Source: Dirofilaria immitis
Taxonomy: Eukaryota > Nematoda > Chromadorea > Rhabditida > Onchocercidae
DNA length: 64,000 bases
NCBI GenBank assembly: GCA_024305405.1
Contig: JAKNDB010000015.1
Span: forward strand, 1 to 64,000
Direction: 5' to 3'
Shown here: in pieces, positions 19,793 through 61,663 of the stretch
Numbering within the stretch: the stretch's first letter is position 1
Layout of the letters: every line of letters begins with the position of its first letter
Made by a program: the position numbers and the translations under genes
The notes under the pieces: model-generated
Seen by the model: the letters and a program-made list of their open reading frames with translations, nothing else
Told to the model about the DNA's origin: nothing
Database searches by the model: none

Positions 19793-19828
19793 GTTACGAT
19801 GTCAAGCAGTATTATCGCCAATATTTAA

Positions 19829-20876
19829 CTACCAAAAATCAGGTTTGCCTCTCTTCTTAAAGAAATAAATTTCTTAGAATTCGAATCTCCACACCCAAAC
19901 TCCTCATTAGAGCAACTGAGAATCCTTTACACAATCAGGAAGCAAGTACTCGCAGACAAATTCTGTACAGTCCAACTATTTGTTAAGAAGCTTGAAAATG
20001 CTTACCACACATGGTTCAAATATATTCAAACCATCACTGCGACAAAAAAAAGGAAGAAGAAGAGAAGGTTTACGAATGCGTCATTGAGAGTGAAGATGGA
20101 CTGTCGCGAATAATGTATAAGGAGAAAGAAGCGCTGATAACGTTAACGAGATATGAGGATGACGCTGAGCAAAAGTTGGAGCAGTTATTGAAAAGGAAAA
20201 GAAAGGAACAGGAGAGATTAATTCCCTCCTTCAAACCTTACTGTAAATCTTCCTCAATTATCGCTGCCTAATTCAAAGTAGGATAGAAAAGTAAGTTGCC
20301 ATTATGGGTTTTGAGAGTAAGGTATATGCTCAAAAAGAGTAGAAATGTCTTGGTCAATTACAAAACTTAGAGACTTTCTGTCGAATATAATTCATGCAAC
20401 CCAACAGGTCAAGAATTATCAGAATCCTTTCGTATTTACAAACATTAAGCTTACAATCAACAAGTTAGAAAAAAAAACCCAGATATAATCCTGGAGAAAC
20501 ACTAGCATTGTTGGTGGTAAGTAGCAATTCAAAACTTTCATTACCCGCAGTTCAAAGTGATCAACACTCATCACGATTCACTATAACTAAAAGAAGGCTA
20601 TGTATATTCGATACACAAAATCATTGGGATAGTGAATGCGACGTATATGCAACTGCTAATGGTAGAAGGAATCGCCTCAAATCGCTAAAGAAATGCCCGA
20701 TCTCTTTCAAAGACAATCACAACGGCGAAAGATGTAAAATCAAAAACGATGTTTTTATTGCAAGGCTCTACACAATAGTGCGTTGTGTGACAACAGAAAT
20801 ACAATTTCATCAAACAGCATTCGCATTCGCGACACTCAGACTAAATGAATTTTATCAAATAAATATTTCATTGTAA
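19829..20876 (+). pseudogene. gag: Decayed BEL/Pao-type gag, right copy
   Basis: The frame opens about 19829 and reads KIRFASLLKEINFLEFESPH, then SSLEQLRILYTIRKQVLA and FVKKLENAYHTWFKYIQTI. It shifts in the A run near 20046 to continue as a Lys/Glu coil (TRYEDDAEQKLEQLLKRKRK) up to TAA near 20270. After a broken stretch, frame 20508-20876 carries LCIFDTQNHWDSECDVYATA, then RRNRLKSLKKC. This follows the pattern of BEL/Pao Gag zinc knuckles (C-x2-C-x3-HW-x3-C, then a Leu-Lys linker, then further knuckles), with the second Cys replaced by Asp. Another frame gives an intact third knuckle, CFYCKALHNSALC (C-x2-C-x3-H-x4-C), near 20753. The protein would package element RNA. Frameshifts make it non-functional as a whole. 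The assignment rests on knuckle spacing and the primer site, with no pol to confirm it. Confidence 0.7.
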
Positions 20877-23135
20877 ATGAATGCCAATAATATTATAAAT
20901 CATTTAATAACCGATTTTACATTTCTTAGGTTTCCACGCTATTTTTTGTTTTTGTTTTTGTTTTTATCTATGTTCATACTATTTGGAGAATGCCTTTGTT
21001 AGCAATCGCTTATAATATTTACCTAAACTTCACATCTTCGTCCAAATTCTCATCCTAATTTTCTCATTGGATTTTGTCTAGGTCGTAATTGTATAACGAA
21101 ACAGATATCTTTTACAAATAAAAGTTTTTACTATTGGCTGGACAATTATAACACAGTTCCACCCAGCCCAATTCAATTCAACACAACAGTGAACCACAGT
21201 AAGCTGATCATCTAACACGACAAATCAACCCGTTGAAACACTAGCGGTATTTGGCTAATAATCGATATCACACTCCGCAACTGAAAAATCCGTGATAGGA
21301 ACATTTGTTATCACATATTAATCTTTATTATCTTTTGTTCTATGTAACATAGAATCATTCTTTTTCTCTTAACATTGTCATCCTATCTCATTCATTTTTA
21401 ATGACATCTTTTAAAGTTGTATCTTATCGCAGGAAAATGAATATTTTCTTCATGTGCAAAGATGATTATTTTTTATTACTCTATGAAAAGTATGAATTAT
21501 CAGCACATCTAGAACTTGCACCTACAAATTTTTCGCCTGGTTATAAAAATCAGTATTGATTGAAAAATATTTTAATTTTCCTTTCGCTTAGTTAAAGACA
21601 ATACAAGTTGTTTTATTATTTAAAAATAACAATGATAATGTTGTGATTTGAAAGCACATCAAAGCATTTATGTCATAAATACAGAAAAAAAATGTCAGAA
21701 AAAGCGAAATATTCTATATTTTTAATGACTCTTTATCTAACACAAACGAATGCTACGATGTCTAATGCAAGTTTTTATTTTATACTACCAAGCTTATCTT
21801 CAGTAGAAAATTACCGTAAACTAATTCACATATAAATATTTCTGATATTCTAACAAAACTTACATACAATTTTTAAAATACTTCTCATCAAATACCATGC
21901 TAATACAGTGTAGGAATGTTTTTCAGACAAAACATCTTCATTATAAAAGGGAGTCTGATTCATTTCAAAAATTTTTCTTTTCTTAGAATCAGCAGCTCGA
22001 CAAACGGTTCATCAAATATTACCAATTATTCCGGATAATCAATCTCTCTGCTACCGAACTTATTTTAATTTTGGTTACAATTTCGACTGTGTGACAATGC
22101 TTCGTAGAAAGTAAAATTTTGAAGCATCATTAAACAATAAACTTTTTGTAATTTAAAATTTTAAGTTTTAAGTAATATTGCGTAAATTGCTAAATGTCAA
22201 CAAATGTAATTGTAAGCGCCTTGTGTTGTTGAAATAGGATTCGTAAAGCGTTCGCTACGCCAATGAGTTACCTCATCATCAAGTTTCTCTCTCTCTCTCT
22301 CTTTGTCTCTTTTTCTCTCTGTCGCAAGAAATCCAAAAATTTTTATAACAAACAGTGGAAATATCTCGTGATGAGAATGCATTGCTGGAAAATAAAATTT
22401 TATATAGGTGTTGAAAACAGAGAATTACGCCAAATATTTGATACAGTAAGTTATCGTTATTGATGAAAGAAAAAACTGATTTGTCGAAAATTCGAATGTT
22501 TTCAATTTATTAGACAACATTATTAATAATTGACAGGTATATTGCAACATTTACAAGAAATAAATAACTACGGAGAGACAAAAAATATATCGATTCCTTA
22601 GTATTTTCCGATTTTTCACCAGATTCAGCAAAATTAGAAAGTAAAATTTTGAAGTACCATTAAACGATAAACTATTTATAATTTAAAATTATTTTAAGTT
22701 TCGTGAAAGCATGTTTGTTGTTGATGAACTTAAAAATGAAAAACTAGCAATAAAACGCATGAATTGTTCTTGTCATGTACAGATTTTCAACTCTCGTACT
22801 AGAAGCTGTCTTGATTTACTGATACTTATGACGGAGTTTGGCACGTGTCATAGGAATGAAAGCTCAGGTTTATTGCATGGGCTGATGCAAGCACGTGGCT
22901 AATTCATTAGTAATTGCTGATTATTTGGTTAATAATTTTAGTCGTTCGAAAAGTTTAAAATGATGAGATGAAAATTTAAAAGAAAAATATTTTATCGCCG
23001 TGCTTGAAATACAACTTTTGAAGAAATTTAAATGCTGATTTATGAAACTGATTAACCAAACATATGAAATAAGCATTATTTCTTGTAAAACAATCTCTCT
23101 TAAATGAACGAATCAATGATAGTAATTTATATAGC

Positions 23136-23172
23136 ATTTCATTTGGCAAAGTGTTTGAATGGAACAGTAACG
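23136..23172 (+). other. Candidate upstream exon 3' part of collagen copy D
   Basis: Mirror of the 7002-7038 segment: ISFGKVFEWNSN followed by a GTGAGT donor. Phase 1 agrees with the acceptor at 23806, which would give the continuous hydrophobic frame VIGINVFLGVFLLIFC. No start codon is found, and the distal collagen exon of D is itself frameshifted. Confidence 0.25.
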
Positions 23173-23805
23173 GTGAGTCAATTAGAAACGTATTCATATA
23201 AATCTGTTTTTTGGCAATACATTCCTTATCACGGGATATTTCTACTGTTTAGTCTTTGTTTGTTTTATTCATCGCTTCAATTCACTTTATCGATCACTAC
23301 ATTGATAAAAGATTTGACTTGATAAAGGAATTTTTTGATTTCAAAAGTTCAAACAATTCGAATAGATTATTAATTCACAACATCAGCCTAAATTTACAAA
23401 TCACTTTTATTTATCAAAACCAGTTTCGTCATTCATTTTCTGGATTCTTTATCTCAATCTTTTAATCATTCGGTTTAATCATCTTCCCGTTAATTATATA
23501 TCATCGATTATAGTTTATGCTGAATTTTATTGTATTCGATACAACCATTTCCGCAAAAATTATTAAATGATTCATTATTTTATATTTTATGAATTCGTGA
23601 AAGATTCATACTAAATATTCCAATTCGCTGTTATAAATAAAAGACACTGATTATCAGTTTAATTCTTAAGTTTTTTCTTCATATTTTCAACGATATTATA
23701 GTAGTTTATAACAGTTTCTTTTCTAATTTGTCGACTAAGCTTATTTTCAGCATTTTCACGAACACTTTTTTTATATTTTACAAAATTCGTAATATTTCAA
23801 TTACA

Positions 23806-29890: not shown

Positions 29891-30259
29891 AGAATTTATA
29901 ATTTTACTTATTAAATTCAAATTATTGCAACAAATGAAATTTGAGTTGAGAAATCATCAAAATTTTCTCTTTCTCCATCATTTTTTTCAAATTAAAAGAT
30001 TAATTTAAATTTATAATTTCTTAATATATCAGCTTAAATGCTAGAATTCTTAGTACAATCTCTTCCTCTGAAGAAATGTTCAAAGTTATTTTTGAAAGAA
30101 TTTCTAATATTTCGTGCAGTTTATAATAAAACATGAAAAACGGACGAAATAAACAGATACAGAAATGAAAAAATTATTTAAAATTTGAAAACAAACTGTG
30201 AAAAATTTATTTATTGCCATTTCAAGGCATTCTTTTAAATCACCTGAATCTGGTAAAAA

Positions 30260-31063
30260 ATAAGAAAGTAGTAAGCTTTTTCTCTCCTTAAATATTTTAT
30301 TATCGACAGTGCTTTTAGCATATCTTTCAGTTATTGACAGTGTCATTTGTTAGATAAAAAATTTGAATTATCAATAAATTAGTTTTTATCCTTCACCAAT
30401 GATAGTGACCTATCACGTCCGTATTTAACATGAATTTATACATTCAATATATTTATGAAAATCTGCTTTCTACCAATGTATTCCTTATCACGAAATATTT
30501 CTACTTTTTCGTCTTTGTTTCATTCATCGCTTCAATTCTCTTTGAGATCGATACATTGATAAGGATTTGACTTGATAAAGAAAATTTTTTGATTTCAAGA
30601 GTTTAACCAATTCGAAGAATTATTAATTCACAACATCAGCCTAAATTCACAAATCACTTACTTATCAAAACCAGTTTCGTCATTCATTTTCTATATTCGT
30701 TATTTCAATTTCTTAATCATTCGGTTTAACCATCTTCCGTTAATTATATAATCATCGTAGTTTGCTGAATTTTATTCGGTACAACCATTCCGCAAAAATT
30801 TTTGAAATAATTCATTATTATATGAATTTCAGAAAGATTCATACTAAATATTCCAATTCGCTGTTATAAATAAAAGACTTTAATTGTTGCACTGATTATA
30901 AGTTTAATTTTTAAAGTTTTTCTTCATATTTTCAACGACATTATAGTGATTTAGATACAATTCCTTTCTAATTAGTTGACTAAGCTTATTTCCAGCATTT
31001 CCACGAATATTTTTTTAATATTTTACAAAATTCGTAATATTTCAATTACAGTTATCGGCATCA
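30260..31063 (+). repeat. Upstream block of collagen copy E
   Basis: Closer to the upstream block of C than to that of D: it keeps 'TTTGATTTCAAGAGTTTAAC' near 30589 and the 'GTATTTAACATGAATTTAT' stretch near 30420. Copy E from exon 1 onward is instead almost identical to D, so copy E is a mosaic. Confidence 0.65.
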
Positions 31064-32368
31064 ATGTATTTTTGGGTGTTTTTCTATTGATTTTCTGCTC
31101 CGTTTCTTTAATTCAGGTGAGTGTCTAAAAGAAGTAAGATGAATATATTTGAAGACAATCTGTGAAACAACAAATACATATGAATCTTATTTTCAGACTT
31201 GCGGACCACCGCAACAAGGACAAAGCGGACGACCAGGGCGCAATGGGCGGATGGGAAGACAAGGAGTGCGAGGTCCGCAAGGAATTCCAGGAGAAATTGG
31301 AGACAAAGGTGCAAAGGAGAGCCTGGAGTTGCAGGTTCGCCAGGTGAAGAAGGAAATGTTGGAGTGAAAGGTGTAATCGGTAACGATGGACTTATTGGTA
31401 TCCGTGGACAGCATATGATGGGAGGATAAAAACAACAAGTAATAGAATATGTAAGAGTTGAATTTATAAAGCAAATGCTTTGTTGTGCTTTCAAATTACA
31501 ACCTTATCACTGTTATTTTTAAATGATAAAACAATTCTGATTGATTTTAACTGAATGAAAAAAATTAAAATTTTTTTCTTTATGGTTTAGTACAACATTG
31601 GCATGTTAAGCGGGAATTGTGAATATGCCCACAATTTTCTGTTCCCTCCACAAAATCATTGCATATGAAAAGAAAATATTTACGTACGTTTCTGCGACAA
31701 GATACAAATCACAAATGCATATCAAATTTATCATAAAGATTGTTCAAATAAAAAGGGAATAACATAAGATGAAAGAGTTGAGGCATGACGATGCGTTATG
31801 TAATATAAAACAAATTTTGAAATTTCGACGCTTCGTACATTTTATGTATTTATATCTGTTCGGTTAGGAAACTCCAATTTTGAATTCAAATTAATTAAGA
31901 ATCCATTATGTCTTCAATACATCAATGGTTTGTTCTTACAAAAAGCTAAATTTTCAATGAAGATTTATTGAAATTAATTATTTGTTAGTTTTAGCTTTTG
32001 TTTATCAATTTTTTCACAGAGAAACATATGCTTCCATTTTTATCAATGATAAAATTTCGCAATAATAAAAAATAGTCTTTTAATCATCCATTTCATCATT
32101 TCTAATCCAGTCACATATTTAAATTACCATAGTGCATCAACAATACATCTTAGTTAATCATTTTTTTTTAATACTGTATTTGCTAACGAAATAATATCGC
32201 CTGAAATATTTCATAACTGCATTGTATTTGTTGAATATTATGCGTAGATATTGATCTTCTTTCCACGTTAGATCTTTTGCTTCAAATTTTTCCGTTATTC
32301 ATGTTTTATTCACGTTTTTTTTTGGTTAATTGCAGCATTATTTGCATGTATTTAAATTTACAGAAATG
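31051..32368. repeat. Direct duplication, unit 2 (partner 23806-25107)
   Basis: See unit 1. Right of 32368 the sequence becomes unique, and this marks the right border of the duplicated cluster in the window. Confidence 0.9.
31064..31429 (+). pseudogene. Small secreted collagen, copy E (same two deletions as D)
   Basis: Exon 1 (31064-31116) is one T short, so the ATG frame stops after eight codons. The intron is 31117-31196. Exon 2 (31197-31429) starts TCGPPQQGQSGRPGRNG, with Ser for Arg relative to the other copies, carries the same missing G near 31317, and ends HMMGG-Arg before TAA. Its flank and coding part are near-identical to D. With both shared lesions it is best read as a duplicate of an already broken gene, unless homopolymer errors affect all three of B, D and E in the same way. 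Confidence 0.8.
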
Positions 32369-35300
32369 GTATCAGAAGGACAGTATAATTACCGAAAGCA
32401 TGCAGAATGAATTTGATTTTTGATTCTAATAAACCTTATCATTTGCTTTTCATTTATATTAATTGAAATATGGACGGAAATGCAATGACAAGCATGTCGA
32501 CAAAACGAATGCAACAAGATTTATTCTTCTTTCATGTTTATCATATGCATTATTAGTAATTAATGTTCTGCGAACTTGAAGCGAAAGAATGAATCAAAGC
32601 TTGGCAACGATCATTTTTATTGGAATGATTTCAATCGTTGGCTGTAATATTTCACTTTGGTTTATTGAAACTATAAATAATTATTCACTTGTTGATATTT
32701 AACTAAAAAGCAATACTGTTATTAAAGTTGTAATAATTCTTACAAAACAAAAATTTTTAACAAGACCGACTATCTGATCTTCAAGACAAAAATAGCTGAC
32801 GACAAACAAGAAAAAGATTACACAAATATGAAATTTTAAATTTAAATATAACGGTAACAAAATTAACTGCATTTGAAGAAATTTGAGTATCATACTTTAA
32901 TCTGGATTTCGTTCATTTAAAACAAAGCCGTTGTTGTCTCGATCATGATCTTGATAAATTTCACTTGCTCGCATATTCAAATCTGCGTTGTCCCATTACA
33001 AACTTTATGAATCTACGCCTCGCAAGATTCCAATCTAAAATTTATTCATTTTTAACTTTAATTCAATCGATTTGAAATAAGCAAATTCTTCAAAATGCAG
33101 GACTCGACAATGAGCAATAGTTTGACGAGAAAAATAAAAGTTATCTTCTTTATTGCTATAGTCCTTTGACAACTGATATCATTAATTATTTTAAAGAAGT
33201 AGCTGATTTATTCCTTTTTATACAAATAGAAGAAACAATGATGTTCGGAATGATCTGATCATCATAATTTTATAATATTTCATCTAAGAAATTCTGTACG
33301 GAATGGATATACTGCACGAGTCGAATACTTCATAATTGAACAATGTTCAAGAAAGAATAACGAAAGAGGAATACGTTTCAACGAATATATAACACGATAG
33401 ATTGATTTATTGAATTAATTTTAAATGAATATACTCATTTAGATAAATGATAATTGGTTTAATCAATATAGTTTAATGAATTAGTTTAACCTGGAAAATA
33501 TTACTGAAAATATCATCATTTTTGTTCCATTACTTACAATAATCTGCATCCGATTAGTTGATAGCATCTTATTAATAATATCATTGATTAATCTTTCAGC
33601 ATCCTGAAAGCTTCTGATAAGGATAGAGATTAATAATTGTCGAATATGTTTTTACAAATGGATTTTCAAAAATCTATTAGTGCCATTTCTAGTGTTTAAA
33701 TTTGCGACAAATCGAATTCCGATAAATGATCATGTATTCGATTTGTTACTAAATATTGATTTTAAATTAAATTTTGTTTACTTTTTAAAATTGAGTTATT
33801 AATCACTGAGTTGAATTTTAGCAACACATTAGGTTATTAACTTATTCATTTAAATACTGAGCTTAGTATGGTTTTGGAATAAAGTTAAAAATTTTTCCAA
33901 GAAAATATCATATTTTAACAAATAAAATGCCAGGAATTTTTTTCAAAACGATTTAAAATACTGGCACAAAAATAACAACATTTTTAGATCATGAATTTCA
34001 GATTATTAATAGCATAGTTTAAGCTTCTTAAGTTTTATAAAATAGAAATTATAATAGCGAACATTTAGTTAGTTATAAAAAATTTTTGGATAAATATAGC
34101 GAAAGCAATTATTTTCTAAGCTACTGTAAATGGAAAAATTTTTAATAAAATGCAAAATATCTAGCAAATAAATTCATTCAGTTTGCTCATCTTCATAGCA
34201 ATTTTTCAAGTATTACTTGTTCAACTAATGATTTGAATTGTTTTTTCTATTGCCTACTGTTAAATAAAAATAATGCATTAATCATCATTGAATCTCATAT
34301 CGGATTCGTTCAGCATAAAAAAATGCGATCAAATAACGATGATTTTAATCTTTGTTATTCGACTTTAGAAAATCTCGAAAGATTTTCGAGCTTATTTCCT
34401 ATCTACTATCGAACCGTAGTGGGCTAATTATCAACAGTTATCATTTTTATTCACACATCATAATAAGATCAAGAAATGATTTTTTCCCATAGATGAAATT
34501 TACAGGAAATATAATGGATCAATTTATAGAATATACAAATTACTGAATTTTTCCATCTAATCAACTTTTAAATATGCTAAGAAATTGCAAAAATTATCAA
34601 TGATGAATTTATCATTAGCTTCTCCTGAAGTTATAAAAGAATTAGCTTTCAGCAATTGCTTTCACTTAGTAATCGACTTGCAACAGTTATTCTCAATCAA
34701 TAACTATAATCAATATTGCTGATCAGCACTACTTTCATCATTTTCAAACACTCATCTTATTTATAAAATTTGTGCAACCAAGCTGTACAGTTTTTTTGAT
34801 CAACTATGTTGCTGATATCGAAAAATTGCTTTAATATTTGATTATTCATTTGATTTTTAATACAATAATTAACTGAATCTACTATCTATTTAACACCGTA
34901 ATCTCGTACCTTCTAAATCAAACATATACGAACAAGCTAACCACTCAGTAACACAATGTAAGCATCAAGATAATTTATGATATGATCATCCTTATATATA
35001 AATATGTTAATTATGAAACAGTAAAGTTTAGGAAAACAAAGTAAGAAAGTTTATTACGATATCGATTTAATAGAATCTAATAGAAATATTATTCAATTTT
35101 AAAATGGATTTATTGCTATATAATTTGAAATTTTATTGTTTGCTTATTAACAAATCCATTCTATTTTCCTTTGTTTGCATAAAAATTGGAATCAAATAAA
35201 ATGACTGTTACATTGGTATTAAAATTTTTGGATAACTTTTTAGTTTCAAAGAAAAACTTGGCGATTTTTAGATTTTTCTTTTTTGTAACAGTGGCGAATT

Positions 35301-36886
35301 TGTTTTTCATTCATCCTTCTAGTAGAAGCGTACTACAAACGAATAATATTAATGTATGAAAAGAAATATTCATAATTGAATATATATTTTGGTAAATTTA
35401 GTATAAAATAAAATTTGCAAATAGATAGACAAAGCTATAAAGAAATATATAATTATATTTGATTTACAAGAATAGTTTTGTCAGCTGTGAAATAAAACTT
35501 TATAACCCTACTTCGTTCAATATATTTAAACTCTTAATGTTACTAAAAGTTTTTATGAAATTTCATATAAAGTTGCTATATAAAACTATTCGATAATATA
35601 TTTACTGATTTCGGCTTCGTTGAGAGATAATCAGTATAGGAGAAGTGCTAACGATCATTGAAAAGTTAGTTTGTTTAATAGACCAACTTTTGCTAAATAT
35701 ATGTAAATGATCAAAAATATTGGATAAATAAATTTTAGTTAAATATTTGAAGAAAAAATCGATCGCCTAATTTTATACTAATTTTTTGATTTTTGGATTA
35801 AGAAAAATACTTGATAACACTTCAATTTTCTATTGATACGAATATTCAAAGATGGAAGTTGATATATCATCATAAATGAAAATAACCGGCCTATCTCACT
35901 GAATTTTACGTATCACGTATACGTAAAATATTTGTAATGGTACTATGTTTGGCCAAATATTGCTTAACGTAAAATGTTAATTTCAATGTGGAATATTCCA
36001 TTAGAAGCATAATTTTAGCTAAATTCTTTTAATCTCTTACAGTAAACAAAATCTAAATTACAAATCTTTTATTGTAAACGACAGCATTTCAAACAAATTT
36101 AATCAAAATCATTTTCTATTTTTGTTTTAAGCTAATATCGAGAATGGGAAAGTGCTAGAAAAAATCCATTATAAATAACTTTTTAGTTATACTTTACAAT
36201 ATTTCTAATAGTCAGTCTCATCATTGTAATATTGCAAAATATTATTTCGTTTAGAAAAAAAAAAAAAAAAGAAAAAATTTCTCATTTCCAATAGCTAAAT
36301 AATTGTTTCCCTCTATTCACAGTTCGATTGAATCGGCAACCATCTATTGAATATTTTTATTTCAAACTTCCGAGAATTTTTTTTTTTTTAACATTATTCA
36401 ATTGCCGTTATTTTCTTTATCAACTATGCTTAAATATAAAATTGTGATTAAATTTGATAAGATATTGAAATTTTTAAGTCAATTAATTAATAAACAAAAT
36501 TAATTTAAAAATTAATTAATTAATAAAAAAAAAGAATTTCATAATCGTTCGTAGTATTTTCATTTTAATTTATGCCAAAATAATTTCTTAAAATTTGTAA
36601 AATTTTTTAAACAATAAACGAATTAATTTATTCTATTGAATGGAATATTTTATAGATTTAGTAATTAAATTAGATTAAGCTTAACGAAGTTTAATTATTT
36701 GTTTAATTATTAAATTAAGCATGATATTTTGCCTTGTTTTTTTTTTTTTTATGCTATACTGTTTTAGTGTTATTTGAATGCTGATAAATATCATATCATT
36801 TAATACTTTGTTATTAAATAAATATTTCACTTTATTAAACAATTATATCTTAATAAATTATTGATTTTACATATTAAAAATTTTAG
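32369..36886. other. Intergenic region upstream of the EVI5-like gene
   Basis: No convincing coding exon on either strand; frames are short and AT-driven. Base composition becomes more AT-rich toward 36 kb, with long A and T runs (for example around 36255 and 36380). If the first exon at 36887 is correct, the promoter should lie here. Confidence 0.5.
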
Positions 36887-37026
36887 ATGGTTGCTTCAAT
36901 AGCAAAATTGATGGCATTTCAACAAAATTTCATCTCATCGTATTATTATTCATCACAATCGATGGCACCGTTATCATCCGAATCACTTGGTATTGAAAAA
37001 CGTACCATGCAAACATATCATAATAG
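36887..37026 (+). CDS. Candidate first coding exon of the EVI5-like gene
   Basis: ATG at 36887 stands directly after an ATTTTAG acceptor, the usual arrangement for a spliced-leader acceptor or for a short non-coding exon upstream. The 46-codon peptide begins MVASIAKLMAFQQNF, continues with a Ser/Tyr-rich stretch and ends QTYHN, followed by AG at a GT donor (37027). Mixed codon use and the richer composition stand out sharply from the surrounding DNA. It ends with two bases of a codon (AG), which the exon at 50493 completes with A to give Arg. The peptide itself is not a recognised domain. Joining it to the downstream exons across 13.5 kb rests on strand, phase and lack of other candidates. 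Confidence 0.55.
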
Positions 37027-38111
37027 GTTCACATTTTTTAATTGAATTCATTTCATCTCATTATTTTCAATTTTCCATTTGTACAATTTTAAATGCATTC
37101 ATTAAGTTTTTATATTACCTATTATCGAACAGCAATATCTAACAAACTAATTATTAGATTATTTGAGTTGACAGAAAATAAATAAATAATGATTATTTAA
37201 TAATAATTAGAAAATATTATATCAAGATTTTAATTATAGATGATTTAATTAAAATTCTAATGAAACATAGTAACATTTGATTTGATAGAATTTAATAATT
37301 CTAATATATTTTCTTTCGATAAATATTATTTATAAATTAATAGATAAGATTATTGTTTAATATAATTTTCAATAAATTAACAAAAAGGCTTATTATTTAG
37401 TCTGATTTATTTATTGATATAAATAATAAATAATATTTTTATTAATAGCTTAATTAAGCATCTCATTTATATGATATTTTCAAATTATAAAAGAACATTT
37501 TGAAAAATTCTAAATCTTGGACAAAAATTTGATGCTATTATCTTATCTATCATATACACATATGCTGATTAATATCATTAATAAATTTTTAAAACTGCAA
37601 ATAATAGAAATGATAATTTTGATATCAAAATTTTGTTGATATCAAAATTTTTGTTGATATCAAAACTATTTTAAGCGTATCAATTCGATCAATCATTCAA
37701 AATTATTGCAGTTAATTTTGAAATATTAACCAAATCATTGTTAAACTAATAATTCATTTTTATAAAATATTCGTTTGTTATTTTAAAAAATTAATTCCCT
37801 TTTCGTTTTTTTTTTTTTCATTTTTAACTGTGTTACAACAAAACTAAACAACTGTTAAATATTTGCACTTCAAATTTCTCTCATCGTTCAAATTAATTCT
37901 ATCCTTTTTTTTTTTTTTGTTTTTTTTTGTTTTGTCCTTTTCCATCCCTTATTTGCATAGATATTTATTTACTTGTCTTCTCATTTATTTGTTAGCAAAA
38001 AATAAAAATCATTTGTTAAATTTTTTTTTTTTTTTTTTTTTTTGATAGGACGATAATATTTGTCAACCTAGTATTACAGCAATTTCTTAATTCTGTCATT
38101 TTTATTTCTCT

Positions 38112-38285
38112 TACTTAATTCGTTTATTTACTTAATTACTTCGTTATCAATTTATTTGTTTATCGTTGTATTAGTTCATTTGTTTAATTACTTCGTTATC
38201 AATTTATTTGTTTATCGTTGTATTAGTTCATTTGTTTAATTACTTCGTTATCAATTAATTTGTTTATCGTTGTATTAGTTCATTT
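38112..38285. repeat. 52-base tandem repeat, about three copies
   Basis: 'TATCGTTGTATTAGTTCATT' recurs at 38161, 38213 and 38265. It lies in the first large intron. Confidence 0.9.
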
Positions 38286-38829
38286 ATATAGACAGAAATA
38301 TTAAATAATTTTTAGAAAAGTATAATTATTTAAATATACGAATGAATAGAGGAAAAAAAAAAAAAGAAAGCTAATTTTTATAAATTAACAATAAAATTAT
38401 TCATAATTTTTAATAAATTACAAAAATTTTCCTACTAACATTTTTATATAATCATAAATAAAAAGAAGGACGATTGATAATTTCTCACTAATTATTATAA
38501 ATTAATAATTCATCGGAAAAAAAAACAAATAAATTTCTTGTAACATTGATGATAAACAGTCAGGATGATCGAATTAAGATAAAACTTTAATTAATCATAA
38601 TTAATTTTGTTAACACGAAATTATCTTACTACTCTATTAATTTTTTTTTTTTTGGATAACAATGATATAGAAGGTGAAATATAAGAATCGACACTCTCGA
38701 TCATTTCGTTATCGTTATTCATTTCTTAAAAAAAAAAAACGATCATTAATTAACGCATTCAAACAAAATTTTAGATATTATTATGATTTAAATTTTTAGA
38801 TATATTATTATGAAAAAATAAGAAATTCA

Positions 38830-39078
38830 ATAGATGTGATTAATACTATGAGCATGAGCTCGATGCTTAAAAAGCGTTAAATAACAGTCGAGGTATGCAA
38901 CATTTTTCTTCAACTTATCATAATTAACACGAGTTCATTTTAATGAAAAGGGTTTCAATTTTAGGATCAACAGGAAGTATTGGAAAAAAAAAAACTGTAG
39001 ATCTACTATTAAAGAAAAGAAGAAAATATCAAGTAGAAGTACTAAGCCTAATCAAAATATACTTTACTTCACATTGCA
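38830..39078 (+). pseudogene. dxr: Bacterial DXR (IspC) N-terminal fragment, probably Wolbachia-derived
   Basis: ATG at 38943 opens a frame reading MKRVSILGSTGSIGKKKTVD, then LLLKKRRKYQVEVLS, to 39047. The GSTGSIG segment is the NADPH-binding motif of 1-deoxy-D-xylulose 5-phosphate reductoisomerase, and the spacing to the Asp-Leu-Leu helix and the Tyr-x-Val-x-x-Leu strand fits the enzyme start. After a frame change of about two lost bases the likeness goes on as SKYTLLHIA to a stop at 39079. The enzyme belongs to the MEP isoprenoid pathway of bacteria and plastids, which animals lack. Wolbachia of filarial worms have dxr, and nuclear Wolbachia fragments are common in these hosts. Only about 45 of roughly 390 residues remain. 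The A run in the Lys triplet may have grown by slippage. Sequence from about 38830, including a frame ending VINTMSMSSMLKKR then stop, may be the end of a neighbouring bacterial gene; that part is inference. Confidence 0.8.
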
Positions 39079-40025
39079 TAAATTTTTTTTTTTTTTTATT
39101 ACTACTTTTAAAAATATAAGAAATGTGAATAAAAATTTTTAGTAATTACACTTTTTTTTGTATGGATTTTTTTGAATATTAGAAAATAGAAAATGCAAAA
39201 AAAAAAAAAAAAAACGGAAAAAGAGGTACTAAAAAAGCCTAAATTAATGATAATTTTTAGCATAAATCTTATTTTTTTAAAATTACAACCTATATATGAT
39301 TTAATCAATTTTATATGACTTTTTTCATCACTTAACCAATTTTGCAATCTTAAATGATTGAATATTTTGAAATATCAAAAATTTTATACAAACTATTAAT
39401 TTAACATTGATTTGTTAAAAAGAGGAAGGGGGAAAAAAAAAAGAAAACGAATAAAAATTTTTTTCTTCTTATATTACCAATAATTTTACAGCTCCGGTTT
39501 TATTCGTCAATTCTTGTAAATTTGTGTTTCATCACAATTTGCTATTTTGTTCAATTTCTTTTCGAATAACCTTTTTGACAATTTTTTCCTTCTTCCAACT
39601 TGCAACCTTTTTCTTTTTTTAAACCTATTCATTCATTTTTATGCCAATATAGAGAAGTATTGATAATTGAATTATTTTTTTCTCTTGTAAAATTATTTCG
39701 TCAATTTTTCGAATTAAATTTTTATTTCTTCCATTGAACAAATGTTCCGATCAATACGAAAAAATCAATCAATTATGCGTCGTTTTATCATTAAACACGA
39801 TCACTTTTATGCCTACTTTATGCAACTAGTAATTATAACTTTCTGCTAAAGCTTTCTTTTTTTTCATAATTAAAACTTTCATATAGAAATTAAAAATTGC
39901 TAGAATGAGAATATTTTTTTTTTGGATTCTAATATTTTAAATCTTTATTTCAAAATTTATCAACTTTAGCAGAAACTAATTTTACTAATTAACGATTTCA
40001 TAATTAAAAAGTGAACTTTTTCGTA

Positions 40026-40415
40026 GGTAAAAATTAAGATTACCATTATGATCACAATGCGGAATTATTGAATTCTATTATTAAAATATAATAGATATTT
40101 CAAAGATCCGAGAAATAATAATGCAAAATCAAAATTATCGATTGAAAATTTTTCGTCGTAAAAGTTAAGATTATCATTATGATCACAATGCGGAATTATT
40201 GAATTCGATTATTAAAATATAATAGATATTTCAAAGATCCGAGAAATAATAATGCAAAATTAAAATTATCGATTGAAAATTTTTCGTCGTAAAAGTTAAG
40301 ATTATCATTATGATCACAATGCGGAATTATTGAATTCGATTATTAAAATATAATAGATATTTCAAAGATCCCAGAAATAATAATGCAAAATTAAAATTAT
40401 CGATTGAAAATTTTC
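40026..40415. repeat. 131-base tandem repeat, three copies
   Basis: 'GATCACAATGCGGAATTATT' recurs at 40050, 40181 and 40312, and units two and three are almost the same. It lies in the first large intron. Confidence 0.95.
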
Positions 40416-43149
40416 TAAATTTATTCACTAAAATATTTAAAAAAAAAAAATATTCATTTGCAATAAGCATAATTTGATTCGATGATAGAAAATTAATTTT
40501 CTACTAAAATTGTATTTTTCCATTCTTTTATTCTTTTCTCAATAATTTGAATAACTCTTTATCATTCATCTTTTTAAAATCATTTTGAAAGAATGCAAAA
40601 ATTTAAAAAAATTTAACCAAGTTTAGAAAATAAAAAAGAAAAACTTTCGATAAAAGAGAATTTGAGAATTTTCGTTTGCCAATTATTTTTTTATTTTATT
40701 TTATTTTTCGTTATTTCTTCTTCTCTTTCTGACAGCATATACTTTTATCATCATCATTTCTTTTATCTTTGTTTGACATTATTTTCAAATTTGCTCCAAG
40801 TTTTTTTTTGAAATAAAATAAAATTTATTCCTTTCTATTTTTAAACTGAAATAAATTTTCGCCTAAAAGTTTTTATATTATTTTCAAATAAATGTAATTA
40901 TTATTTTTAAGCATAAAATAATTTTAATTATTAATTATTATTAGTAATAATAATTAAAAGTTATATGATTTGTTTTTTCCAATCATTAAACAATGATTAA
41001 ATAGCACTATGATCATTATCGATCTTTGTTTTATTTACAGCATGACGAGAAAACTCATACAACAATAACAACAAATAATATCAAGATATATGAATTAATT
41101 CGGAAAGGCTAAATTTCCAAGACATATCTATCATTTGTTTTTAAAATTTTTGAATTTCTCAAAATTCTCCTATCTCTTTTCCATTTCGCTTTTTTTTTTT
41201 CCTTATCTTTACCGCTTGCCATTTGAACATTTTTGCCGTCCCCAACCAATCATTCTCGTCTTGATGGAATGAAAACGAATTTTATAAAAGCTTCCGAAAC
41301 ATTCGTAACATCATTCGTTAAATTCAATGAATTTGTCATCGATATCTTTTATTTTTTGCCCTTCACATGAAACGAATAGTCATCGATAGTTTATTAACAA
41401 TTGCTACCGAATAATCTTTTAAAGTTTAAAATTTCTTTTTCTTTTTAGAAAAAAATTAGATTCCGAAAAATTAGATTCTGAAAAAAAGCAAGATTCTTTC
41501 ATGCTGTCCTTTTATCAATGCTTTGTTTTTTTTTTTTTTTTTTCATTAATAAATGAACGATACTTTAATTTCAATCATTTCCTTTTGATTTGTAAAATGC
41601 TAAAATTACTGTTGTTTTTATCATCATTATTATCATTGCTACTTTTATGATATTGTTAATTTTTATTTTTATTATTAGCTGCATTTTATGCTATTTATTT
41701 TTATTAATGATAGCATTGATTCGCTTCATCGTATTTTTTGAAATTATCATATCAAATTGTTATTTCTATGATATTAATTTTTTATTATATTTATTTCAAA
41801 ATATTTACTTATTAAAATTTATTAGTTCAATTCAGTTAAATCAATTCATTCTATTTATTCATTGCTTTTTTTTTTTAAATAAATTTGTTATGATAATGAA
41901 TCTCGAAATGTTGCGAAATTCAACTAACAATTTTTATTTTATATGCAAAATTTTGGGAAAAGAAATTTAACTTATACAAGACAAGACCATAATTTGTCCA
42001 TATATTGATCTTTTCAAAAAAAAAAACTAACTTGGCTAATATTCTTATCTTTGCGTTAGTAGTTGGTATGATATGTGATATCGAAGTAAAGCATTTTCGA
42101 AGCTTTAACATAAGCCCAGAGAAATGTTAATTAGAGTATATTAGCCTGATTAATGAAACTTTGATAATTGCGTATGTAAAATTATTCGATGACTAAATTA
42201 AAGTTTATTTTTTTGTCCTGGAATGCTTAATAATTTTTAATTATGTTCATCATAAATAATCTGTTTGCAATTATCAATAATCTGTGATTTTTGAAATGAT
42301 AATTAAAATTCAGTAATCACTGACAAACGTTGCATTTTGTTGAGACTAATATCTATTTTTAGAAAAAGTCAAAAATATCATTTAAATTTTTTCAACCAAT
42401 TTTTCGCTTATTTTTTACATTATAGAATTTTGTTTATCATTAGTTTATCAATTTGATTATCACTACTATCAAAAATTAACATTTAAAATTTTTATTCGTA
42501 TATTTCTATTTGTATTTCAGACAATTGTATTAAATTCATAAGACTTTTATTGGCATATTTTATTCAAAACTTTGCCAACATATTGATTAATTTCATGCTA
42601 TACTTTTCAATCATTTATCATACCTGCATTACTATTAATTGTTATCATTAATATTACTACATCGTTATAGCATCATTATTATCATTATTTATAATCATTT
42701 CATCATTATATCTGTTCGATGTCCATTTCAACAATATCCTTGATGATGATGATGACCCGAATAGTATGGATTAATATATTGCATGCGTAATCATAGAGAT
42801 GACCTGAATGATTTTGAATGGCCTGCATTTGAGAATGACCTTAAATAACCATTTTATCAATGCCATATATTTCAAAGAAATCATCGAAAAATGAATATGT
42901 ATGAAGCGCAAAATTATATCAATTAGAGAAACGATTATTCTTCGTTTTTAAATTTCTATAAATTTTTTTTTTTAAAAATAACAATTCTTTTATAAAATAT
43001 CTTTTCTTTTGTTTTGATTTAAACAATTTTTTTAAAAAATTTTTTTCAATTAATTAATTAATTAATTTTTTTAATCAATGAAGAAAAATAATTTGTATAA
43101 ATTAATATTTTATATTAAATTTTCAAATAAATTTTTATACATTTTATTT

Positions 43150-43775
43150 ATTTATTTATTTAAGAAATCATTGAATATCGTAATTATATTATATGAAATA
43201 AACTATTTACAATAAGAGGGAATGATAATGTATGAATGATATGATCAATGTAGGATATATTAATTTTGCTATAAATCTTTGGTATTTAATAAAATTGCCA
43301 TTTCATTGGAATAATTGATTATTGATTATACTTAATTTTGTTTATTTTAGAAATCATTGAATGTCTTAATTGTGTATTTATAATAAAATAAAATGATAAT
43401 GTATGAATGATATGATCTGTGTAGAATTTATTAATTTTGCTGTAAATCTTTGGTATTTAATAAAATTGCCATTTCATTGGAGTAATTGATTATTGATTAG
43501 ATTATATTTATCGTTAGTATCTAATAAAATTGAATTTGATATTTAATAAAATTTGAATCTCTTCCAATAATTGATTATTGATTATACTTATTTTTATTTA
43601 TTTATGAAATCATTGAATGTCATAATTTATGTATTTATAGTACGATAGGATAATATATATGTATGAATGTTATGATCTATGAAAGATTTATTAATTTTGT
43701 TGTAATATTTCTAGTATGTATAATAAAATTGTATTTCATTGAGTAATTAATTATTGATTATGCTATATTTATTCG
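43150..43775. repeat. Diverged tandem array, about three units of 170-260 bases
   Basis: The order 'GAAATCATTGAAT', 'GATAATGTATGAATGATATG', then 'TTTAATAAAATTGCCATTTC' repeats, with the first anchor near 43166, 43351 and 43607. Units vary in length. Confidence 0.75.
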
Positions 43776-45999
43776 TACTGATAATTAACTTTTGTATAAG
43801 AGAATTGAAAAAATTTTATTTATAAAATTAACTATACATACATATTAGATTTCAACAATTGATGCTATATTTTTACAAAAAAAAAAAAAAAAGAAATTTA
43901 ATAAAGTTTTTGAAATAATTAAAACCAAAAAAGATATGCGATTTTTGACGAACGATATACGTTCATAGTTTTATAGCTTTTAGCAAAAATTTTTACTAAT
44001 ATCTTTTAAAATATAAAATAAATTTGAAATTATATTTTTGCCAGGAAATGCATTTATTATTTTAATAATTCGAAAAATTTTTATTATCTATTTCATTTTT
44101 ACAATCATATTTATATCAAATATTTTCCTAAACTATTTTATATTCTTATCATTTCTTATTTAATCGTTAACATTATTATCATCATTATTATTATCATTAT
44201 TATCATTATCATTTCATCTGTCTATCTATCTATCTATTAAAGATCATCATTCATTATTTTTCATTCTTGCGTTATTTGAAAAAGATAAAAATAAGCATAT
44301 AATGCTAATAGCAATAGTAATAGTGATAGTTTTCTTATTTAATCATTAGCATTATTATCATTATTTGATCGTATTTAGTTAGTATTCATATTATCACTTA
44401 TTAATTATCAATTGAAATTATCTGATAATGTCCAAATTAGTATTAGCTGATATTTTTTGATTATAATATCATTTGTATATGTGAAATTATGTAATTATTA
44501 ATATCGAACATATATAATTTAGAAAAAAGATTTACTTAAATTAATTAATCAATGAAATTTATTTATTCAATAAATTTATTGCATATGATATGATATCATT
44601 TTATTATCATATACTGATTTTTGATCATATTTTTTCAAAATTTGAACAATATATTTTATTTTTTCAGATTGATTATTATTTGTTTATTTTTTTTGTACTT
44701 AAAATTTACGTACACTATATATTTTCGAATATTATTTAACAAAATTGTATGCGTCGAATGAATATTTTGATAAAAGATTAATTAATCATTTATGCCATAA
44801 ATATTATCAATTAATCTATCTGATTAGCATTGTTGTTATGATGAATTTGTTGCCATTTAACATTTATTATCTTGCTAACATCATCATATTATCAATAATA
44901 ATTTCTTTATAACATTCTATTATTATACTACCATATAATCAATTATCACTATACAATCAATTGCAATATGATAATATGTTTTATTAAAATTACTAATAAT
45001 TATTTCGCAAAATTTTCCTTCTAAACATTTAGTAATAAAAGAATTGATTAATTTTATCTTTCTTTATTCCTCTTTCATTCATTTTTTCTTTTTTCTTTTC
45101 ATCATTTTTTGATATGATTAAAATAATCAAATATATTAAAAGGAATGATAATTTTGGAAAAAAAATTCGATTTATTAATCGTTGACATAAAATTAACATT
45201 TCGCGAAAAAAAAAGCGAAATTTCGATTTTTTTTTTTGTTAAATAAATGTTTCTTAATTTATGAATTATTTTAAAATTATATTATTACTAAAATGAAAAT
45301 TATCATATTTTATATAGCAAAATATGATAATTTTTTTTGTTTTTTTATATTATTTTGAATGATATTTAATATGATTTCCAATTTTTTTTTTCATTTTTTT
45401 CTCATTTTTTCTATTTAGTAAAATGAATTGATGAAAAAAAAAAAAGTGGATTGATGATTAAAGTTAAAAATGTTAGGCGATATGAGGAAGAAGAAAAAGA
45501 CTAATAGTTTATTTTAGTTTGTTTAGCTGTAAATATAACGTCCAAAATAATATTATATCGAAACAAACATTTATATATCGGTCAGGTAATTTTGTGATAT
45601 CAGTGAATTTAATAGTTTTATTAGTCATCAAGCATTATTTAGATTTTTTTCATAAAATTCTATAGTAAATAAAATTTGATTTTAGAATTTTAAATTTTGA
45701 AAATTGCGAATTCTGAAATTCGTAATTTTAAAAATATTTTTAATTTGATTAGTAATACAACAAGATGTAGGAAATATATTTTCATTGATCTTATTTTACT
45801 TGACAAATAGGTAAATAAGTGTAAAATTTTCATCTTAATGTATTAGTATGAGAAGAGGTATGAAATTATTTTCATTTGATCGTATTTTATTTGGTAAATA
45901 AAATACGTTGATTGATATATCCTAAATATCTTAAATATGTTTGTTTGTTAATACTAATAACATATTTCAAACTTTGTGTACATATTTCAACGTTGATCT

Positions 46000-46160
46000 T
46001 CAATGTTCCAACTTTACTAGTAACTTGTATATTATTATTATTTAGCTTTACTAGTAACTTATATATTATTATTATTTATTATTTAGCTTTACTAGTAACT
46101 TATATATTATTATTATTTATTATTTAGCTTTACTAGTAACTTATATATTATTATTATTAT
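46000..46160. repeat. 41-base tandem repeat
   Basis: 'TTTAGCTTTACTAGTAACTT' starts at 46041, 46082 and 46123, linked by an ATT-rich stretch. A looser version of the unit recurs to about 46330. Confidence 0.9.
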
Positions 46161-46861
46161 TTATGTGCTTTATTTTTTAATATTTACTATAGAATTTATT
46201 GTTATTATTTATATTTTTTTGTATGATTATTATTATTTACATTATTATTATTTATTATAATTATTATAATATTTCAACTTTGCTCTTTAATGTTTCAACT
46301 TTACTAATAACTTATATATTATTATTATTTATGTGCTTTATTTTTTTAATATTTACTATAGAATTTATTATTATTGTTATTATTTATATTATTGTATTAT
46401 TTATATTACTGTTATTATTATATATGATTATTTATATGATTATTATTGTTTATATTTATATTATTATTATTTATATGCAATAAAAACGTATATATGCATA
46501 ATTTATATATGAATTATGTAATATAAATAAATAGAGACATGAATGAATTAAAATTACAATTACTTTCACGCAAACCTATAATTGTCATTACTTATTATTT
46601 ATGATAATAATACTCAGGTCATTCGTTCATTTCATAAATCCTAAAAACGAACTCTTTCATTTATTTATTTCTTTTATTTTTTCTTCCTTTTTTTTTTACA
46701 ACAGAAATGTCGTTAACCTTGAAATTGCTCTCTTTCTTCTCTTAAAAATTTTATTCAAAATTTAAGAAATTTTCTTTTCTTTTTTTTCTTTTGAATTTAT
46801 GCAAAAATTTCGTCATGCAAAGAATTACTTCTGATGTTGTAGAAGAGAAAAAGAATTGATA

Positions 46862-47313
46862 TAAATTTTTTTGTTTTTATCAATTTGTAAAAATTATATC
46901 CATGCGTGGGTGTTTATTTATACGTGTGTGGGTGGATTTCAAAAGAAAAAAAAATGCGTGGTAGATATGGGTAGATAAAATTTAGAGATTTATTAAATTG
47001 ATTTATATATATTGCAGAAGAGAAGTTTTTATCAATTTGTAAAAATTATATCCATGCGTGGGTGTTTATTTATACGTGTGTGGGTGGATTTCAAAAGAAA
47101 AAAATGCGTGGTAGATATGGGTAGATAAAATTTAGAGATTTATTAAATTGATTTATATATATTGTAGAAGAGAAGTTTTTATCAATTTGTAAAAATTACA
47201 TCCATGCGTGGGTGTTTATTTATACGTATGTGGGTGGATTTCAAAAGAAAAAAATGCGTGGTAGATATGGGTAGATAAAATTTAGAGATTTATTAAATTG
47301 ATTTATATATATC
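46862..47313. repeat. 151-base tandem repeat, three copies
   Basis: 'CATGCGTGGGTGTTTATTTA' begins at 46901, 47052 and 47203. Units are nearly identical, with differences mainly in one A run and one G/A change. Confidence 0.95.
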
Positions 47314-49038
47314 AATGCGTAAATAAAAATAAATATATGTATGTATTAGAATGAGAAAAGCATAACAAAAATTGTCAATTTGTGGTAGCATTGGTTGCTA
47401 ATGGTGATTAGTGAACAACGATAGTTAATAGTTTGATTATTATATATATGAATGAAATGATAGCAAATATAATTCTCTCGAATTGATTGTTCGTAATTTT
47501 TCCATTCTAAATTAATAATTAATCTATTTTCAATCTTTCGCACTTCTTCATTTGTTACCTTTTTTTTTTTTTTTTTTTTCATTTGTTTTAATCAATTTTA
47601 TTCGTTCAATTCATTTATCACTAATGATAATAAATTTATTATGTTATCAATATATTTCCTATATTTAAAATGCTACCATAAATATTTGAATTTAAATATA
47701 ATAATTAATATACAAAATTAGGTATAACTTACGAGAAAAAAACAAAAACAAAAACAAAATGTCAAAAATATTATCCAAAAAAAAAAAACGATGAATATTT
47801 TTTAGTTTTTTTAATGGCTTGTTTTTTTCTTTTTTTTTTTCTTCTCATTTTATTAATTTGATATATTATCATAAGAATTTTATAAGTTTGATTTAATCTA
47901 ACAATTTTTTTCTTTTTTTTAATTATTCAATATGCAATTTTGATTTTATCAAAAAAAAATCTTCCATCGCTCATTCCTTTATCATCTCATTCTTTTATTT
48001 TTTATTTTTTTTTTTCACATCAATCAATGATAGATATTTTGATAAATTTTTTATATGTATATAGGCGTAATTGTTAAAGATATTTCTTCTTCTGATAAAT
48101 ATTTTTTTTTTTTTTTAAATAAAGGAAATATGAATTTTTGAAAATTGCAAATTTGATTTTCCATTAATTTCAATTATTTGTAAATGTATGAACAAGTTTA
48201 AGAATTTATTATAAATTAATAGTTGTTTGAAAGCAAAAAAGAAAAAATGTTTACAAAAGAAGCATTCTACAGGCAATATATGTTTATCATTTTTATTATT
48301 TATCTTTAAATTTATTTATCTTTAAATTTATGATATTTTTTTTTAAAAAAGGCTTTTTTTCCTTTGTCTTTAATTTAAAATAAACTTTATAAATTTTAAT
48401 TTACATAAAGAATTTATTAAAAATTAGATTAATAGTACTGGGGATGAAAAAAAAATAAACAAATGAAAATATTCCTTATGATATAAGATGCAATTGTTAT
48501 ATTTGAATATTTCATCATTTTTATATTTTTTTCATTTTTCTCATCAAAAAAATAAACTAATCGCATTTTTAATTTTCGTTTATCCAACAAATTATCCATT
48601 TCAATAATTTTTTTTTTTTGAGAAAACAAAGAAAGAAAGAAAAATAAAAATTAAAAAAAAAATTTTTGCCTTTTTTTTCCCATCAATTTTATCAATTTAA
48701 TCAAATTTTTATTTTTATGCTTTTTAGTATTATCAAAAATGAAAGAAAACAAAAATTTTCAGTTTTATTTTGTCTTAAAATTTGATTATATTTTCAAATT
48801 TTTTTTCGAAAATTATTTTGTGATAAAAAAATTATTTGAAAAAATTTTCAATATGTAAAAGTTTATAGAAAAGCAATTTGATATATTCGATTGTATCACT
48901 AATATATCAATTAGATAAAATACATACCTATACATACCTATTCATACATACATATATTTTCCTATACAAATGGATTTAATGGAAATTTGCGACAGTTCGT
49001 TCAGTTTGATAATCGATGACAATCGCTATCCTATCTTT

Positions 49039-50685: not shown

Positions 50686-50773
50686 CGACAACAACGTAAA
50701 GAAGGAATTGCATCCTTACGGATGGTTGCCGCATTCCTCATGCAGCAACAGCAATCCAGAAATATTAATAATG
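50493..50773 (+). CDS. Polyglutamine exon of the EVI5-like gene
   Basis: The acceptor AATTTTAG ends at 50492 and the donor ATG then GTAAGT stands at 50774. The exon reads RSIKQYRIIESNNWFIEESL, then LLCIQRIAYRK, then 33 Gln (50587-50685; CAA with a single CAG), then RQQRKEGIASLRMVAAFLMQ and SRNINN. It enters with one base, completing the AG of exon 36887-37026, and leaves with one base (G), which the exon at 60709 completes as Glu. The non-repeat flanks have balanced codon use and code beyond the microsatellite, which argues for a true exon rather than a simple CAA repeat. Length of the Gln tract probably varies between individuals. No known domain is seen; membership in the EVI5-like gene rests on strand and phase. 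Confidence 0.6.
50587..50685 (+). repeat. (CAA)33 microsatellite coding for polyglutamine
   Basis: Ninety-nine bases of CAA with one CAG near 50620. The almost pure repeat suggests recent expansion. Confidence 0.97.
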
Positions 50774-59423: not shown

Positions 59424-60708
59424 ATTTATGAATATAAAGCGATAGAAATAATCCATTAAAATTATAAATAATAATTAGCAAAATTTTAAATTGATTAATA
59501 TTAATTGATTTTATTTAAATTAATTAATATTAATTAATTTTATTTAAATTAATTAATTCGATTTATTTTCATTTCTTCTTTTTTTTCATTTTAAAAATAA
59601 AAATTAACGAAAAATTAGGTTAAAATTATACGATTTCTCCGTTTTTCTTTCAAAATCTCTCCGTTCATTTAGCACTTTAATCTCTTCCTTTTCTTTTCTT
59701 TCTTCGTTTTTTTTTTTTTTTCAACCTCTTATTATCATTTTTTGCTCAATTTTTATCACTTTAATTTATCGCTATTTATTTTTTTTTGAAAATATTTTTT
59801 CGAAATTAACCAACTATCACTGTATTATTCACATTTTCCTTTTAACATTATTATCAGCAATTATTGCGATAGGCGAATAAATGACATACATTTTCTGTAA
59901 AATTATCCTAACATGTATCGTATCAATAAATCAGTTCATCATTCCATGATTTGATCTAATTTTTAGTAGAGCTAAATTTAACAATTTATTCGCTGATATT
60001 TTAGATGAATAATTTAGCATGAGCTAAATTAATGAACTTGTTTTAATAATGATTCTTTTTTTTTTTTGAAAGAATTTAGCCTAAGGCCAAATTTAAGAAA
60101 AAAAAAATTTTTAGGATAATTTAAAAAAATATATTTTGAAAATTAATTCGTACTATTTATTATCAAAATTATTTAACGAATTTGTGCTAATTTTAAAAAT
60201 GAAAAAATTTTTTCTTCCTGACTAATCACTTTCATATCAAGCTATCTATCATTTTATCATTTTGATATAGGAATAAAAAGAGAGAGAGGGAGGGAGAGAG
60301 AGAGAAAGAGAACGAGAGCGAGAAAAAAAAACGATGAAATGCTGAATATTGAATATTAGCTTTCCTAAACTAGGCTCTTTTTTTTTTTTACCTTATTGCC
60401 AAGTTTTAATATTATTATTTAGTCATCAGTTTAATTATGAGAAATATTTCATCGTTTTTTCTTCGGTCTTCTTTCCTAATTTATTTGGCAATTTTTTTCA
60501 TTTTGAAAAGTTTTTTTTTAAGTAACTTTTTTTTCTTCACATTGAAATATTTAATTTTTTTTTTGGAAAAAATAAGTTTGTTGAAATTTAGAATTTTCGT
60601 TTTGTTGTTGTTGTTGTTGTTATTTCTATTAATTGCCATTGTTTACTATGATATTAAATATGTTTATTGATTAATTGATTGATTGAATGAAGAAATGATT
60701 TGTTTTAG

Positions 60709-61066
60709 AAATATTAAACGAATCGTTGTCAACTGGTGGTATATCGATTGCTTCAACAACAGTTGGAACAATTGAAATCGGTGATACTTGCTCGGTAAAT
60801 AACAACAGTAGTAATAGCGGCGGTGGTGGTGGTGGTGGTGATGGTGGTGTTGATGATGATGGTAATGGTAATGGTGGTGATAATGATTGTGATGGTACAA
60901 CTGGTGAAATTGAATTAAACGAAAAGGTACCGGAACCGGTTGTTTCAATGTTAATGAAGATGGAACAAATGAATACATCGAATGAACTTGATTCTCGATC
61001 TGTTGCATCAATACGAACCGGTTCAAGTAGCTCTGGTGGTATAGTAACTGATAGTTTTAGCCCGAG
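60709..61066 (+). CDS. EVI5: EVI5-like gene, Ser/Gly-rich exon before the TBC domain
   Basis: The acceptor TGTTTTAG ends at 60708 and the donor CCCGAG then GTAATT stands at 61067. The exon reads ILNESLSTGGISIASTTVGT, a Ser/Asn/Gly/Asp low-complexity stretch (Gly run near 60820-60840), then GEIELNEKVPEPVVSMLMKM, SNELDSRSVASIRTGSSSSG and DSFSP. In vertebrate EVI5 the region just before the TBC domain has a leucine-rich 'LLAKLEE'-type helix, then a Lys-Ser-Leu-Arg-Ser-Val-like segment and a long Ser run. LMKMEQMN and DSRSVASIRTGSSSSG fit that order. EVI5 proteins are Rab GTPase-activating proteins acting in membrane traffic and cytokinesis; the catalytic domain would lie beyond the window. The exon enters in phase 1 and leaves in phase 2, both matching its neighbours. 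The family call rests on remembered pattern and not on an alignment. Confidence 0.65.
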
Positions 61067-61663
61067 GTAATTTAACTTATTTCTGATTTTTTTTCTTTTC
61101 ATTTACTATTTTTTTCCTTTCAAACTTATCAAATATTTCGAAGACATAATATTTTGAAAATAAATGTCATTTTTTGCTAAATTTCTATTTTTAATAATTT
61201 CGAATTTTAAATTTTAATTTACAATTTTATTTTTCAATTTTACCGTAATTTATAATTTAAAATTTTTAGCAAAATTTTTTACCGTATTTCTTCGTTTTAT
61301 CTTGGCCATTTATTTTTTTAGATTTCAATTATCTAAGAGATAATCAGTCTAATCAGATTAGGCTATTTAATTTATTGCCATAAAAATAATATTTCTTTTG
61401 ATAATTTTCATATATAAAATAATATGCTTTAATTTGCAATTTTTGATTGATTTTATTAATTTCGAATTATTAACCTAAAAAATATGAAATTTCTTTTTAT
61501 CGCATACAATAAAATTGAGGAAACAAAATTTAAGAAGCCAAATTTTCATCAAGTAAAAAAATGCCTAAAATAATCTAGGCTTTCTAGCAACAATAAGATT
61601 TGATAATTATCTAAAATTTTATCCTTTATATTAAAAATACTATCAACCTGAATAACATTTCAG

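Follow-up and report, generated by a model that had tools for sequence, protein, structure and literature searches.

About 235 bp of DNA in the genome of the filarial nematode Dirofilaria immitis very probably represent a nuclear Wolbachia transfer (NUWT), in which two fragments of DNA from wDi, the Wolbachia symbiont of this species, are joined in AT-rich DNA upstream of the host gene tbc-6. The window analysed is the whole stretch of 64,000 nucleotides at positions 1 to 64,000 of contig JAKNDB010000015.1 (assembly GCA_024305405.1), and the total extent of the insert, made up of two pieces here called A and B, was obtained by comparing this window with wDi (reference NZ_CP046578.1).

Judged from its alignments to wDi, the insert is a two-piece mosaic of wDi DNA, because piece B is abutted by a piece A that originates from wDi bolA, about 18 kb away in the symbiont chromosome and on the other strand. 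Piece A (38812..38845, + strand) consists of 34 bp of Wolbachia bolA, sense on the plus strand, with its source at wDi 490903-490870 (minus), and 33/34 of its bases are identical to wDi; the wDi ORF from which it derives is identified as BolA (PF01722, E 1.9e-18). As a control, 300 random host 34-mers were compared with 32 kb of wDi, and the best of them scored 26/34, against 33/34 for piece A. In the comparison of a 251-base query with the wDi chromosome, piece A obtained 58.1 bits and the runner-up among the 23 matches 30.1 bits. Piece B (38845..39047, + strand) is a contiguous wDi segment starting from wDi 472898; over 38845-39046, 195/199 aligned bases are the same as in wDi, with one additional in-frame 3-nt insertion. 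At its right edge, base 39047 is that of wDi and base 39048 differs from it. The two pieces, whose sources lie in opposite orientation, have a single base in common at their junction (A, 38845). From left to right on the plus strand, piece B contains the 3' end of the wDi ORF upstream of dxr (38845..38870, Y-E-H-E-L-D-A-stop), the Wolbachia spacer between this ORF and dxr (38871..38942), and dxr codons 1-34 with one inserted AAA (38943..39047). For the upstream ORF, open over 171 codons in wDi, no Pfam match was found at E up to 0.001. The first-pass annotation of this DNA had placed the fragment at 38943..39078; the start of dxr at 38943 stands, while the Wolbachia-derived DNA runs from 38812 to about 39047.

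A comparison of positions 30001-49000 with wDi, in which 40 of 156 first-look candidates were scored, returned piece A, piece B and one weak AT-rich match (43830-43891, 79%, E 1e-4); the rest of the window was compared with 7-kb pieces of four Wolbachia only. Positions 38752-38793 also resemble the Wolbachia symbiont of Dipetalonema caudispina (81%, E 8e-5); wDi gave no counterpart in that search, and the similarity was set aside as probably due to chance. No Rfam match was found in the window at gathering thresholds. In a search of plasmid DNA, none of the best 20 of 361 records (E up to 10) overlaps the insert, and the matches to plasmid records look like AT-rich matches.

At the protein level, the frame starting at 38943 matches PF02670 (DXP reductoisomerase) with 25.4 bits over a cut-off of 21.7, and Dxr is the best of the six NCBIfam models listed (E 5.9e-6, 25.4 bits), with a score well below the whole-protein cut-off of 315.7, as expected of a fragment. 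When residues 1-42 were scored against 5.8 billion proteins, three proteins at E up to 10 were obtained among 42 candidates: the DXR of the Wolbachia of D. immitis (E 1.9e-9; 34/35 aligned positions identical, one gap), the DXR of the Wolbachia of Cruorifilaria (E 1.3e-7) and a third protein with the same Pfam domains (E 2.6). A PDB search gave six sequences, one of them a DXR at E 0.19. These matches bear out the earlier recognition of the start of DXR, here bounded at 38943-39047.

On nucleotide and phylogenetic comparison, the insert was donated by the lineage to which the living symbiont of D. immitis belongs, because piece B has 195/199 identity to wDi, the next Wolbachia reach only 82.3% and 83.1%, and the tree groups the insert with wDi at 100/97. 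The insert aligns to wDi with 336 bits. Next by score come the D. caudispina symbiont (82.3% over 203 bases) and a 957,990-bp Wolbachia genome, G009 (83.1% over 172 bases); other Wolbachia give shorter alignments, with up to 84.8% over 125 bases. A contig scan with wDi DXR retrieved 17 loci, four of them titled Wolbachia. The tree was built from 39 DNA rows, 37 of them different, after four loci had been removed as duplicates from genomes already represented; outside it are L070 (genome G019), which did not match the insert at E 1e-5, and genomes G022 and G027, in which dxr was not found. G009 joins the insert and wDi next, weakly (95/36), and together with the D. caudispina symbiont these form a group of four (99/99), outside which several distant rows have long branches. 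The insert thus lies within the diversity of Wolbachia in the 39-row tree. The Wolbachia origin proposed earlier therefore agrees both with the searches against bacterial proteins and Wolbachia genomes, whose best matches are Wolbachia with wDi first, and with the tree.

The differences between insert and wDi amount to four substitutions, of which one falls in the start codon, and a 3-base gap. The start codon at 38943 is ATG in the insert and GTG in wDi and in 35/38 Wolbachia rows (wDi counted); of the remaining three rows, all on long outer branches, two read ATG and one AAG. The insert shares a T at 38978 with G009 and the D. caudispina symbiont; across the 37 other rows T occurs in 24 and C in 13. 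At 38896, 35 of the 37 other rows have a gap, and 38852 is mixed across rows. As regards polarity, on these alignments the start-codon change stands, 38978 is less clear, and 38852 and 38896 are not polarisable.

Homology to dxr past 39046 was assessed by local scores against shuffles for five Wolbachia targets, with random host places as a second background for wDi and the D. caudispina symbiont only. For wDi, 5.2% of the shuffled sequences and 7.5% of the random host places reached the observed score; for the D. caudispina symbiont the corresponding figures were 0.6% and 0.23%, and for three further Wolbachia, compared with shuffles only, they were 5.5%, 25% and 40%. Because five targets were tried and wDi itself is weak, dxr homology past 39046 is not claimed. 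Positions 39047-39090 are faintly similar to the dxr sequence that follows in the D. caudispina symbiont, more so than to wDi; this similarity is probably due to chance.

The condition of the isoprenoid-pathway genes in other Wolbachia was noted alongside. A dxr match is present in 39 of 41 Wolbachia genomes searched, over cut-off in 38 of them, and there is none in G022 and G027. In G009 (L074) dxr looks decayed, with two partial family matches only, both with stops, and frames broken throughout. In a family search of six genomes, ispH was over cut-off in two (G004 and G022), and no match was found in G003 and G027, the latter possibly incomplete; the gene is heavily decayed in G009, and the wDi copy (L082, 850900-852000) looks broken, since the record sequence, as distinct from reads, has a stop within the frame and a shift of frame. 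According to an earlier study (PMC4289336), the enzyme for the first step of the isoprenoid pathway is missing in wDi, and ispH is transcribed at a very low level. Decay of this pathway may be under way in some filarial Wolbachia.

The identity of the donor bears directly on the meaning of the insert, which the first-pass annotation had seen as possible evidence that a worm now without Wolbachia was once infected. The insert is indeed a decayed fragment in a nuclear contig, and comparable fossils are reported from Wolbachia-free filariae (PMC12693587). Here, however, the host is D. immitis, a species that harbours wDi (PMC4289336), so that a lost infection finds no support in the insert. Host markers agree with this species: the D. 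immitis ITS2 forward primer (PMC9009037) has three exact sites in the assembly, and in the copy inspected the reverse primer site, short of one base, lies at a primer-to-primer distance of 289 bp, against 302 bp in the published table. One of the two D. repens 5S primers had no site in the assembly at up to 1 mismatch, an absence that an unassembled repeat would also produce. Moreover, the closest relative of the insert is the living D. immitis symbiont, well ahead of the next, and three other insertions in the same assembly, matched over 168-206 bp, have a stated wDi identity of 100%. A fossil of a Wolbachia infection now lost is therefore very improbable.

These other insertions emerged from a comparison of 20 kb of wDi around dxr with the host assembly (86,694,620 bases in 65 contigs), which returned at least 35 matches, the longest among them being 711 bp at 84%. 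The three matches given as 100% to wDi are C17:3339019-3339224 (206 bp), C10:12018992-12019182 (191 bp) and C21:1247150-1247317 (168 bp); such identity would follow from recent transfer out of the present-day symbiont, and they are probably very recent transfers. Eight of the 35 matches, the present insert counted, overlap wDi dxr. The further dxr matches in this assembly (G000) are C60:4459923-4460633 (84% to wDi), C60:289564-289663 (92%), four copies on C54, C53 and C41 (85-86%) and C63:2977571-2977794 (67-68%). The four matches on C54, C53 and C41 cover the same dxr stretch and may be copies of one insertion. When four of the seven, one of these copies included, were examined, three were best to wDi dxr; the match on C63 was best to dxr of the D. 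caudispina symbiont, with wDi next. All seven are more diverged from wDi than the insert is, and hence older or from other strains. On these identities, the assembly contains many Wolbachia insertions, probably of different ages.

The same comparison speaks to whether the insert could come from reads of live wDi, as contamination or as an assembly chimera. Wolbachia-identified contigs have been taken out of one published D. immitis assembly (PMC9179477). In the assembly searched here, a live Wolbachia chromosome over the 20-kb dxr stretch is absent: neither a long wDi stretch nor a full-length dxr was found among the at least 35 matches. A DXR family search of the assembly also returned nothing; as it missed even the short insert fragment, it excludes only a long dxr. 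Furthermore, the insert comprises only about 235 bp, in two unlinked pieces within a 748-kb contig, and it is set apart from wDi by four substitutions, that of the start codon included, and a 3-base gap. An artefact of this kind is accordingly about as improbable as a lost infection, or slightly more so.

The insert is embedded in a host nuclear contig of 748,086 bp, at the level of one assembly, which agrees with the earlier view of a decayed fragment as opposed to an intact bacterial contig. Host exons flank it, with collagen-repeat exons on the left and tbc-6 exons on the right. The surroundings are very AT-rich, as had been noted, with a G+C content of 20.6% and 21.2% in the two kilobases from 38001 to 40000. 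The nearest gene definable around the insert is tbc-6, on the plus strand, encoding a Rab-GAP TBC protein. Its exon at 60708..61067 (+) matches Brugia malayi TBC-6 at E 6.5e-27, and matches of small E span 60708 to about 70490; the four hits among 33 candidates come from Brugia, Cercopithifilaria, Wuchereria and Setaria, with Dirofilaria unrepresented. The probable first coding exon lies at 50722..50772 (+), where 17 residues are 70.6% identical to Brugia TBC-6 at an E of only 0.26, shortly before a possible GT donor. The distance from the insert to the first recognisable, weakly matching tbc-6 coding exon downstream of it is thus about 11.7 kb. A 5' untranslated exon of tbc-6 farther to the left is possible, and so the intronic location assumed previously is neither demonstrated nor refuted. 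Farther left in the window, 6404-11324 and 18849-23772 form a large inverted repeat, with blocks of 2843, 1526 and 448 nt that are 99-100% complementary, and collagen-repeat exons recur around it.

Within the dxr part, the poly-A run of the insert is three bases longer than in wDi and adds one Lys; the extra AAA keeps the frame, and the fragment is therefore without the frame break previously ascribed to it. This gain could be a homopolymer assembly error. Nor does the frame stop after about 45 residues, as had been thought: DXR homology ends after 35 residues and the open frame extends to 58, through DNA without clear homology. From such a frame, open over 58 codons from an ATG where wDi has GTG, a putative small protein might be expressed by the host. 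With 34 of 390 DXR codons followed by low-complexity Phe/Leu encoded by a poly-T tract, a host gene of this kind is very unlikely. A complete DXR reading frame was not found in the insert, and a functional, horizontally acquired dxr is ruled out by the end of homology after 35 residues; with only 34/390 dxr codons and 34 bp of bolA, the insert is unable to make DXR or BolA. Finally, chance resemblance, for which one might invoke the recurrence of short motifs in DNA of about 80% A+T, is refuted by the wDi alignments, namely the 336 bits of the insert and a piece A well above the maximum of the 300 background places, and has a negligible probability.

DNA capture during break repair is a general inference for organelle and symbiont insertions. 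For the NUWT upstream of tbc-6, we infer that a double-strand break in the germ line would have been repaired by end joining that took up pieces of broken symbiont DNA as filler. Two wDi fragments, 34 bp of bolA and about 203 bp at the 5' end of dxr, would have been joined with one shared base, and the joined pieces would then have become embedded in AT-rich host DNA. The insert would be without gene function and drift neutrally. A rearranged donor chromosome, instead of the joining of two fragments, could also have given this structure. More tentatively, and with a probability clearly below even, the insert may be a young scar, left when two fragments from the living symbiont were taken up by end joining; germ-line capture may be ongoing, and this insert and the insertions of 100% identity may be polymorphic among worms. 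If so, they would be usable as markers of isolate history and transfer rate.

Taken alone, the insert matters little, being one more NUWT in a species with hundreds reported. Its analysis removes a tempting but unsupported reading, that of a vanished symbiont, and the mosaic is a small, clean case of two unlinked symbiont fragments joined in a single insertion. For D. immitis, 483 NUWTs have been reported, 85% of them assigned to supergroup C and 12% to F (Vancaester et al. 2025, PMC12693587); as described there, they are, like the insert, short and incomplete stretches of Wolbachia DNA within the nuclear genome. As reported in that study, the screen used HMMs of coding genes with E below 1e-30, a threshold that an insertion containing about 100 coding bases may fail to reach. 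In Onchocerca volvulus, PMC5310847 reports 531 putative nuwts, with 98% of 576 nuwt-ORF regions fragmented, and judges them largely non-functional; seven exceed 1 kb, and the junctions of four of these were verified. These differ in host and in symbiont strain, and the present insert is far shorter than the verified ones. Next to these systems it is an ordinary NUWT, one of many in D. immitis and of a kind already well known.
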